From a virus: a stretch of 41,187 bases of DNA. The stretch is taken from the IMG/VR virus record IMGVR_UViG_3300025778_000034, positions 1 through 41,187 of that record. One strand, given 5' to 3'. The notes below the pieces were generated by a model that saw only the letters and a program-made list of their open reading frames with translations, made no database searches and was not told where the DNA came from. This document shows positions 4,659 to 25,144 of the stretch, piece by piece. The stretch's first letter is position 1, and every line of letters begins with the position of its first letter. A program made the translations under genes and the position numbers.

Positions 4659-4707
4659 ATTTGGTAATTAAAAAACTTTTTCGTATCTTTGACATATAAA
4701 TAAAAAG

Positions 4708-4842
4708 CGGGAGGTGACAGAGTGGCTGAATGTGTTAGTGTGAACCCTAAAAATGAAATTTCTATTCATGGGCTGAAACTGATAAGTTGCGTTGTAGGGA
4801 GTTTTACTTGCATCTTCGGAGGTTCGAATCCTTCCTTCCCGA
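4708..4842 (+). tRNA. tRNA-Ser-like with hairpin insert in the anticodon loop
   Basis: The acceptor CGGGAGG pairs with CTTCCCG, the D-stem is ACA/TGT around GAGTGGCTGAA, and the T-stem GGAGG/CCTTC carries TTCGAAT. These are class II serine features. The anticodon stem TTAGT/ACTGA (or GTTAG/CTGAT) encloses about 34 bases instead of 7. The insert is a hairpin with CCC/GGG and ATGAA/TTCAT. The variable region is about 35 bases, roughly double the usual. If the insert is removed, TGA (Ser) or CTG can be read, depending on the junction, so the anticodon is left open. Its promoter is at about 4663-4695. Confidence 0.65.
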
Positions 4843-22368: not shown

Positions 22369-22482
22369 AAAAGATTTGGTTATTAAAAAAATATTTCGTA
22401 TATTTGTAAAACAAAAATAAAGAAAATGAAAAAGACATAAAAAAATAAATTTGGTAATTAAAAAAATTATTCGTATATTTGT

Positions 22483-22943
22483 TAAAGATTATTAAAGCAT
22501 ATTGAGTTCCTTTAAAACATAAATTAAAGAAAAAACATACTCACCGCTTTATAACAAATTATAAACTTTTTAATTTAATTATCATATAAAAGTATTGAAA
22601 ATAGTTAGCATAAAACGTTCCTTCAAAAAACTCAACTTTTATGAAAAAATACGTTTCGCTAATCTTTTGCACAAGTAGTTCCTTTTAAAATTTAGTGGGC
22701 GCAAGTCCTCTGCCAAAAAATACTACTCGCAATTTATTTTAATACTAAACTCTTTAAGGCATAGGGTGTTCCTTTTAAAAACAATTTTTAGCAGTTCTTA
22801 CACCTCGCCTTTTTACCTTATTGTGGCACAAATAGTTCCTCTACTTTTATTTAGGAAAAATTTACTATTCGCTACAACAAAAAGAAAGACATAAATAGTT
22901 CCTCTTTAATTATTGGAAATTTTACTATTCGTCTTTCTTTTTT
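22483..22943 (+). ncRNA. Tandem array of six structured RNA hairpins
   Basis: From the promoter (TTTG at about 22450, TATATTTG at about 22474) to a T-run, six units repeat one architecture: outer stem ending in C, AYAA, 5-bp inner stem ending in T, TCC, 18-40 variable bases, inner stem complement, YC, G and the outer complement. Units are 22494-22550, 22605-22662, 22667-22732, 22756-22811, 22821-22877 and 22884-22937. Inner stems differ (TGAGT/ACTCA, AACGT/ACGTT, GTAGT/ACTAC, GGTGT/ACACC, ATAGT/ACTAT twice), as do outer stems, while the loop bases stay, which is strong covariation. The last unit plus T6 doubles as terminator. No known family recognised. Confidence 0.75.
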
Positions 22944-23047
22944 AATTTTAATTTGTTTATTACTTGCAAAGCAAGAATAAAAAAAATATATTTTTGTTTA
23001 TTAAGTCAAATAGTTGTATATTTGCAACACAGAAAAAAACACATAGT

Positions 23048-24853
23048 ATGAATCATTTAGTTATCGCCCTTTTTAATAAGGCAATCCCATCAACTGAAAA
23101 AATTAATTTCAGTGAAGTTAATAAAGTAGCTACAAAGCTAGGGTACATTGTACACCCCGACATTTGTAATCGTGAAGTTTTGAATTGGTTAAACACTCAA
23201 AAGGTTAATCTAAATTCAACCTTCTACAAAAGTTGGAACGATGTTATCGTAAAAAGTCGTTGGGAATTATACCTTGACCAAATTAAGCACTATGCTTCAA
23301 CGTATGGTACTAATTTTGAAGGTGAAGTGTATTTGCCAGAAGGTGAAGTAGAAATACCTAAATTTACAGACTTTAAAGTTATCACTCCGATAACTGCACA
23401 AGAAGTAATTTCTCGTTGCGAAGGTATGTTATTTAGTGGTATCGCTCTAAAAGAAGATACTATGAAAAATCTTTTGGACATTCTTACTTGGTTAAACCAT
23501 AAGATTGATGTTGATAAAGTAAGGAACAAAGAAGCTAAAATGATTTTATGCAAAACATATAATCTTTTGCCTTCCGATGCTGCTGAATTGGTAAGATACT
23601 TAGTGTATTTACATACTGATTCTACTTTATTAATTAAGAGTCCAGAAGTCATTAGGGCTATTGGTGCAAAACACATTGATATTACTAAAATAGTAAAATC
23701 ATTTGGTGAAGAAAAACTTTCCAGCGTGTTCTTCCGATTCAAACCGATTTTCTTGGCTTTCAAGAAAAATCATAAGAATAGAAAACTTATTAACAAACTT
23801 AGACGTTTGGCAAATAAGTTTCATAAGCCTATGGCAGATGGATTTTTTGAAACATTACTTAGCAATAAGGAAAATGTTTATCAATTGGAAGGTCGTTTAA
23901 AAACGATTACTAACTTCAAAAAGATTGGTTTGCTACAAGCAATCAATATAAGATTGAAGGAATTGGGTGATAAAGTTTATTTGGTTCGTAACCAAAAAAT
24001 CTTTATCAAAACAGGACAAGAGTTCAAATATACTGATACTGACTATCTAAAAGTAGTTTATAGTATCATATATGAAGATTTGGTTTCTACTTTGAAAGAA
24101 AAGGCTTGTAAAGTAAGATTACCGCAAGGTATTAACTTAACTTTACCAACTTCTGAAAAATCTTTTATCGGTAACTATCCGATTGGTTCATCATTTGATT
24201 TTGGTGATTCTGATAATATCGTTGGTATTTATTGGAGAGGTGAAGATGGTGCTAGAGATTTGGATTTGAAAAGAATTGATATTGATGGTACTCAATATGG
24301 GTGGAATGCTTCTTATAAAAACTCTGATAACTCAATTGTTTTTAGTGGGGATATGACAAGTGCAAGTCCAGAAGCAACAGAATTATTTTATGCGAAAAAA
24401 GGTGTAAAACCTTCTATCTTTAAGGTAAATTTGTTTAGCGGTGCGATTAATAGCAAGTTTAAGTTCTTTGTTGCAAAAGAAAATGTTACAAACTTACAAA
24501 GAAACTATATGGTTAATCCTAACAATATATTGGTTTCAGTAGATTGTGTAATGGATTCGCAAGAAAAAACTTTGGGTGTTGCCGGAGATAATAAGTTTAT
24601 CTTGGCTCAATTTAGAAGTGGTAAAGGTAGGGTTGCAGGTAATTCTGTTACTAACAAATATACTGACTATGCTATGAACACTTTGGATACTTATGTGGAT
24701 ATGCGTAAAGTTTTAACTGATGCAGGGTTTACATTTGTGGAAAAAGAAAGTGAAGCAGATATTGACTTTACAAAGTTAAGCAAAGATAGTTTGATTGATT
24801 TGTTTGATAAAAACAAAAAGATTGAATTAAAAAAGGTAGCAGAAGTTGCCTAA
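23048..24853 (+). CDS. Large protein with helical N-terminus and TerD-like C-terminus
   Basis: 601 aa from ATG at 23048, after TATATTTG (an earlier in-frame start was rejected). Residues about 120-330 look like helical repeats, with the stretch SVFFRFKPIFLAFKK and KLINKLRRLANKFHKP. Residues about 390-540 (DNIVGIYWRGEDGARDLDL.., NSIVFSGDMTSASPEATE.., KFKFFVAKENV) recall TerD-type domain proteins of tellurite/stress loci (W.....DLDL, SGD.TSAP). The basic helical part could bind RNA. It is the largest gene here, richer in G+C than its neighbours, and lies just downstream of the six-hairpin RNA array. Possible RNP partner of that array; function otherwise unknown. Confidence 0.55.
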   Translation: MNHLVIALFNKAIPSTEKINFSEVNKVATKLGYIVHPDICNREVLNWLNTQKVNLNSTFYKSWNDVIVKSRWELYLDQIKHYASTYGTNFEGEVYLPEGEVEIPKFTDFKVITPITAQEVISRCEGMLFSGIALKEDTMKNLLDILTWLNHKIDVDKVRNKEAKMILCKTYNLLPSDAAELVRYLVYLHTDSTLLIKSPEVIRAIGAKHIDITKIVKSFGEEKLSSVFFRFKPIFLAFKKNHKNRKLINKLRRLANKFHKPMADGFFETLLSNKENVYQLEGRLKTITNFKKIGLLQAINIRLKELGDKVYLVRNQKIFIKTGQEFKYTDTDYLKVVYSIIYEDLVSTLKEKACKVRLPQGINLTLPTSEKSFIGNYPIGSSFDFGDSDNIVGIYWRGEDGARDLDLKRIDIDGTQYGWNASYKNSDNSIVFSGDMTSASPEATELFYAKKGVKPSIFKVNLFSGAINSKFKFFVAKENVTNLQRNYMVNPNNILVSVDCVMDSQEKTLGVAGDNKFILAQFRSGKGRVAGNSVTNKYTDYAMNTLDTYVDMRKVLTDAGFTFVEKESEADIDFTKLSKDSLIDLFDKNKKIELKKVAEVA

Positions 24854-24861
24854 GTTTATTG

Positions 24862-24893
24862 AGAGAGAGTGTTCCACGTGGAACACTCTTTCA
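24862..24893. terminator. Terminator with parS-like palindrome (copy 4)
   Basis: AGAG + TGTTCCACGTGGAACA (24870-24885) + CTCTTT, after the TerD-like gene. Confidence 0.7.
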
Positions 24894-24947
24894 AAATAGA
24901 TTTGGTTAATAACTTAAAAAGTGTTATCTTTGAATAAATAAAAAAAT

Positions 24948-25144
24948 CCGTTGGTAGCTCAGTTGGTTAGAGTGCTATTCTGATGCGCAAACTTTATAAT
25001 GATTGAATGGCAAAAGAATTTGAGTAGGGAAAGGATAGTGATTCGAAGCACTATTTGAGTAGACCAAAAAGTTTGAATAGTTAAGAGAGATTTGTAAAGA
25101 TTCAATAATAGAGGTCGGGGGTTCGAGTCCTTCACAACGGACCA
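24948..25144 (+). tRNA. tRNA-Ile(GAU) interrupted by about 120 nt
   Basis: Acceptor CCGTTGG/ACAACGG (one mismatch) with ACCA encoded, D-arm GCTCAGTTGGTTAGAGT, T-stem GGGGG/CCTTC with TTCGAGT. The anticodon stem CTATT/AATAG encloses CTGAT..AT, giving loop CTGATAT (anticodon GAT) if about 24985-25104 is removed. The insert has CAAACTTT/AAAGTTTG and ATTGAAT/ATTCAAT in interleaved a-b-a'-b' order, an inner ATAGTG/CACTAT hairpin, and a duplicated ATTTGAGTAG. It has the group I-type topology but is too short and lacks a terminal G. Promoter at about 24901-24932. Confidence 0.75.

Follow-up and report, generated by a model that had tools for sequence, protein, structure and literature searches.

Hairpin array and neighbouring gene in the window

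The window analysed here is a stretch of 41,187 nucleotides of viral DNA, the IMG/VR record IMGVR_UViG_3300025778_000034. It carries an array of six RNA hairpins, followed on the same strand by the gene of a 601-residue protein, which is the largest open reading frame of the window (Table 1). Both features had been pointed out in a sequence-only reading, and both were confirmed. A scan for a loose form of the unit (outer stem, four nucleotides, five base pairs, TCC, loop, two nucleotides, returning outer strand) finds exactly six units in 22493-22942 on the plus strand; the same form gives seven weak matches elsewhere in the window and two to four in shuffled windows.

Table 1. Features of the hairpin array and of the gene that follows it, in window positions
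Feature	Position	Strand	Basis or remark
Promoter-like sequence of the array, Bacteroidota-type	22450..22481	+	TTTG at 22450-22453, TATATTTG at 22474-22481, read from the sequence
Hairpin unit 1	22493..22551	+	Pattern scan
Hairpin unit 2	22604..22663	+	Pattern scan
Hairpin unit 3	22667..22732	+	Pattern scan; small GGGCGCAAGTCC hairpin within the loop
Hairpin unit 4	22756..22811	+	Pattern scan
Hairpin unit 5	22821..22877	+	Pattern scan
Hairpin unit 6	22879..22942	+	12-bp outer stem, then a T run (terminator-like)
Promoter-like sequence of the protein gene, Bacteroidota-type	22993..23024	+	TTTG at 22993, TATATTTG at 23017, read from the sequence
Gene of the 601-residue protein, associated family	23048..24853	+	N-terminal part helical; C-terminal part beta-rich with DLDL / SGD / ATE motifs

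In all six units the outer stem is closed by C-G; AHA follows as three unpaired bases, then come a helix of 6 bp, whose first pair is usually R-Y (A-U or G-C), and UCC. The loop of each begins with U, another U precedes the returning strand, and one C stays unpaired. The inserts enclosed by the units are 21-39 nt long. The bases AYAA and YC had earlier been taken as unpaired, and most of them are; relatives revealed, however, that an A-U or G-C pair joins the fourth base of AYAA to the Y of YC. Each of the two thus contains one paired base, which lengthens the second stem to 6 bp and leaves an internal loop of AHA facing one C.

The promoter-like sequences were called with TTTG and TATATTTG, a consensus of Bacteroidota promoters. 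One of them precedes the array, which closes with a terminator-like unit, and the other precedes the gene; the array in this window therefore looks like a separate noncoding RNA with a predicted start site. A palindrome, GTTCCACGTGGAAC, occurs more than ten times between genes of the window together with flanking arms (for example at 24871, 1878, 11746, 30739, 36523 and 40477); it is a repeat of this phage, of a terminator-like or protein-binding kind.

The protein matches no Pfam or NCBIfam family, and its PHROG matches are weak only. Relatives with 24-61% identity are present in IMG/VR contigs of up to 673 kb and in the phages S-CRM01, S-CBWM1 and Phass-1. They are also found in assemblies labelled Bacteroidota, Selenomonadaceae, Fibrobacter, Desulfobacterota, Gammaproteobacteria and Asgard or other archaea, though some of these contigs may be viral. 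An AlphaFold model built on a 121-sequence alignment is confident (pLDDT 93.7, pTM 0.91) and predicts a helical fold up to about residue 305 and a mostly beta-rich one from about residue 380. Foldseek against the PDB gave no significant match with either the shallow first model or the deep one, a comparison with PDB sequences gave no significant solved relative, and no nuclease or ligase domain was recognised in the protein.

A TerD-like domain had been proposed for this protein, and the profiles do not bear it out. Pfam TerD has no match in the 22 family members searched, and the NF041916 profile (the SCO0854/MXAN_6230 family of TerD proteins) matches one 57-residue stretch of the C-terminal part at 2e-07, a short match with 29.6 bits against a cut-off of 600 bits; the rest of the protein is unrelated to that family. 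Among the invariant residues of the family alignment are D404, D406, S433, G434, D435 and E445; these residues, like the DLDL / SGD / ATE motifs, resemble the metal-binding motifs of TerD. The likeness to TerD, as judged from sequence, is weak.

Covariation, distribution and genomic neighbours of the module

The module can be described as two pairing strands, B (GGC-AHA-R-NNNGU-UCC-UAU) and A (U-ACNNN-Y-C-GCC), with GUUCCU...UAC nearly invariant across the relatives. In the 2.11 Mb of loci fetched by that stage, the pattern has 339 matches on the strand of the gene, one on the opposite strand and three in block-shuffled DNA, the latter two being the controls. The compensated variation of the stems, first seen within this one genome, holds across loci. 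Among 94 trimmed units from different loci, pairing is found in 97.5% of the cells, a percentage inflated because the set was chosen by pairing; the covariation is not inflated, given a background of about 1%. Both partners have changed in 333 cells, where shuffles give 88; the covariation score reaches 0.84 versus 0.24 in the control, and shifting the partner by one column abolishes the signal.

Rfam gave no match to the module at or near the gathering score in the window and ten loci. The earlier statement that the motif is undescribed agrees with what was found: Rfam, Pfam and PDB folds hold no description of the system, and the open literature searched holds none of the module (subscription journals and preprints were outside its scope).

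The module follows the protein family across phages, bacteria and archaeal metagenome-assembled genomes, as the proposed co-occurrence predicted. Proteins without an array and arrays beside unrelated genes had been named as the findings that would speak against the link, and both were looked for. Enough upstream sequence was available at 137 non-redundant loci. Units stand less than 1.5 kb upstream of the gene at 110 of these, downstream only at six, and on neither side at 21; most huge-phage records among these 21 hold the motif elsewhere, among their tRNA genes. The arrays contain one to six units, and the last unit ends at a median of 21 nt before the start codon. The forward motif alone reached 21 viral records, and the protein is encoded in all 12 that are at least 45 kb long; the records without it are fragments of 6-40 kb. 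In one bacterial family, the protein is present in 38 of 197 sampled genomes, and two to three units accompany it at 30 of the 30 loci fetched. Genuine units were seen nowhere but at the protein locus in 6 of 11 whole bacterial genomes inspected, where other matches are about as many as in the control. Two loci with a shortened or broken protein gene were also seen. In one (L020, 5887-6510), an internal deletion has cut the protein to 207 residues and two hairpin units remain upstream; in the other (L287, G236:C25), the protein gene is broken by stop codons, and a tRNA-like gene, two units and RtcB remain.

RtcB is the commonest conserved neighbour, adjoining 15 of 80 loci in the cellular collection, and RtcA adjoins one. 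This ligase is known to join tRNA halves in archaea and animals (PMC7790460). Other chromosomal neighbours are RlaP, WYL regulators, CCA-adding enzyme, band-7 proteins and tRNA arrays; the RtcB, RlaP, RtcA, band-7 and CCA-enzyme domains were confirmed by Pfam. Several loci (L044, L048, L052, L055, L057, L062, L077 and others) are chromosomal islands of Flavobacteria with RtcB, RlaP-type nucleotidyltransferases and a WYL regulator, and some of these islands with RtcB also hold arrays of more than a dozen tRNAs. Among 24 large phages with the system, RtcB is encoded in 8 and a PF09414 ligase in 12, and S-CRM01, S-CBWM1 and Phass-1 have neither. Neither ligase is therefore an obligatory phage partner, and a host ligase or another mechanism would be needed in the many phages that lack them.

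The module within and around tRNA genes

Within the anticodon arm of unusually long tRNA genes near an array, both strands recur with their order reversed (A...B). A reverse-order scan gave 69 matches, some of which are pairings between neighbouring units, against two on the reverse strand and none in shuffled sequence. Together with a pattern scan of IMG/VR, it yielded 42 usable tRNA genes. Removal of the insert, 36-54 nt in length, leaves exactly 17 nt with a 5-bp stem, U33 and R37 in 27 of the 42, where 2.4 would be expected from controls in which the flanks were shuffled and the stem bases kept. The full arm is not restored in the other 15. Sixteen inserts sit within the 5' strand of the anticodon stem, and in these the rest of that strand has to come, correctly spaced, from the second exon.

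The restored arms differ in sequence. Excision in a tRNA-Arg gene (L102) joins GTG, which precedes the intron, to CG CT-UCG-AA CGCAC, and in L086 it restores CCG-GC CU-CUU-AA GCCGG. A family of related huge phages reads ACG, intron, CC AU-NNN-AA GGCGU, where NNN is UUC, AUC or UCC, and a CUC member keeps the frame with UC for CC; four anticodons (UUC, CUC, AUC, UCC) are thus found in one frame. Read by eye, excision at L049 (5390-5503) gives a tRNA-Met, and the intron-bearing tRNA of L180 has the form of a tRNA-Glu. ARAGORN recognises one of 41 tRNAs before excision and 40 after it; shuffled flanks pass equally (39-40), so that the gain shows intact tRNA bodies only, and it was rejected as a test of splicing.

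When longer inserts are allowed, the forward order, B-X-A, is found to surround complete circularly permuted tRNAs, among others in S-CRM01 and in loci of assemblies labelled Fibrobacter. Their order is the anticodon side, T-arm, 3' acceptor strand, a short linker, 5' acceptor strand and D-arm. In seven of the nine cases a canonical anticodon arm is re-formed when the two ends of X are joined, as against 0.37 expected. Elsewhere X is a whole linear tRNA or a single tRNA arm, and some hairpin loops contain a T-arm together with a capped acceptor-like stem.

In the Weeksellaceae, whose loci combine a tRNA-like RNA with two to three hairpins, it is often impossible to derive a decoding tRNA from the tRNA-like genes that carry the module; these may therefore be tRNA-like noncoding RNAs. 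Certain huge-phage units (L197:861, L191:274, L181:3375, L180:4747) have inserts made of a D-arm and an anticodon arm, with anticodons GUU, GGU and GCU and without T-arm or acceptor, and separate loci (L228:2971, L224:4668) have an acceptor and T-arm carrying the intron. Trans-splicing of such cassettes into a separate acceptor/T-arm body was set aside, as the L180 barcodes showed no cross-pairing in the one pair checked.

No reverse-order (permuted) module is present in the tRNAs of the window itself. Directly 3' of the protein gene lies a tRNA-Ile(GAU)-like gene (24944-25142, plus strand), split after the anticodon by an insert of about 111 nt that has no GUUCC module and is possibly another type of intron. 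A class II tRNA-like gene of 135 nt at 4707-4842 (plus strand) has an unusual anticodon region.

Interpretation and comparison with known systems

The sequence-only reading had proposed a module that binds a protein or ligand. A real, covarying RNA module tied to a protein is indeed present; since it also occurs in reverse order and around permuted tRNAs, its likely function is now that of a splicing element rather than a binding site. We consider it probable, from comparison of sequences, that the module serves the splicing or circularisation of tRNAs, being cut with the help of the protein and sealed by an RtcB-type ligase. In the order A...B it would act as an intron of about 40 nt, whose excision, followed by ligation of the flanks, would give a normal anticodon arm. 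As removal in this order restores tRNAs, the same reaction in the order B-X-A would circularise X, as in permuted intron-exon genes. The small circular RNA could be a whole circularly permuted tRNA, a tRNA arm or, as in the six window units, a short insert. An A/B duplex formed in both orders is the simplest account of a module that is an insert in one place and a surrounding hairpin in another. The protein would most likely recognise and cut the module, or act as a cofactor, and the ends would be sealed by RtcB where it is encoded next door and by a host or other ligase elsewhere. Linear splicing between neighbouring units of this array was rejected, as A and B match within units and only one weak cross-unit pair was seen. 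The six short inserts of the window would perhaps become small circles, and the units may instead serve as protein-binding or feedback sites.

The alternative with the most standing, although we hold it unlikely, is a ribonucleoprotein resembling Ro60 with Y RNA, in which the protein binds hairpins and tRNA-like RNAs that stay unspliced and serve RNA repair or act as tRNA decoys. It has a precedent in the rsr-yrlBA-rtcBA operon, where Ro60/Rsr and YrlA stand beside rtcBA (PMC7790460). The analogy, already drawn in the sequence-only reading, is retained in part: an RNP candidate lies beside RtcB with tRNA-like RNAs in both systems, the rtcB/rtcA neighbourhood of Ro60/Y RNA recurs at the frequencies given above, and RlaP and band-7 genes adjoin the chromosomal copies. 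The unrestorable Weeksellaceae RNAs with their hairpins, and the T-arms with a capped acceptor-like stem, would also suit it. Membership in that family is not retained, as no TROVE domain was found by Pfam in 22 family members or by PDB sequence or Foldseek fold comparison; the RNA, too, is another one, and a permutable module lies inside decoding tRNAs. What counts against decoys is that arms are restored exactly, far above chance and with varied anticodons in one frame, since a decoy needs no such frame. The two readings could both hold: phages would use the module for splicing, and RNA-repair loci on chromosomes would have put it to a second use on tRNA-like RNAs.

The close spacing of the last unit to the start codon, and the one to six units per array, would also fit a leader whose binding sites let the protein control its own mRNA. 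We regard this as improbable, because units are also found 3' of the gene, far off among tRNA genes and around permuted tRNAs, and in the window a promoter belonging to the gene itself seems to follow the array. The tandem units adjoining the gene had suggested a pair like those of type III toxin-antitoxin systems, with the protein held in check by RNA repeats, and this has to be given up almost entirely. A protein of about 600 residues has no match to the small endoribonuclease ToxN, the repeats differ in sequence and are set by pairing rather than by identity, and whole-tRNA inserts would be left unexplained.

Descriptions of enzymatic tRNA splicing and of permuted tRNA genes are, to our knowledge, confined to archaea and eukaryotes. 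The elements studied here share with them a short intron in the anticodon arm whose excision restores the arm, a short linker between acceptor strands in permuted genes that place the 3' part first, and the ligase RtcB, here beside many chromosomal copies. They differ in the conserved motif, in the associated protein, in their occurrence in bacteria and phages, and in intron sites that lie in the 5' anticodon stem or loop. The bulge-helix-bulge, with two 3-nt bulges and a 4-bp helix, is not what is seen; the module has a 6-bp helix, an AHA/C internal loop and UCC. Group I introns of bacterial and phage tRNAs share the location near the anticodon; no group I catalytic core or Rfam match was found in the window or ten loci, and 36-54 nt is far below any self-splicing group I intron that we know of.

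We lean slightly towards a wider conclusion, namely a new class of minimal introns, served by a dedicated splicing protein, in the tRNAs of phages, bacteria and perhaps archaea. Its permuted copies would make circular RNAs, circular pre-tRNAs among them, and its core is perhaps a catalytic RNA aided by the protein. If this is true, it would be a new and widespread RNA-processing system of bacteria and viruses, with an RNA motif unlike that of archaea and eukaryotes and a protein family without known relative, and it would suggest a substrate for bacterial RtcB. A split anticodon arm might, speculatively, protect phage tRNAs from anticodon nucleases. Being short and permutable, the module could be developed into a means of producing circular RNA. 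It could also explain the unreadable 'pseudo-tRNAs' in the tRNA clusters of phages.
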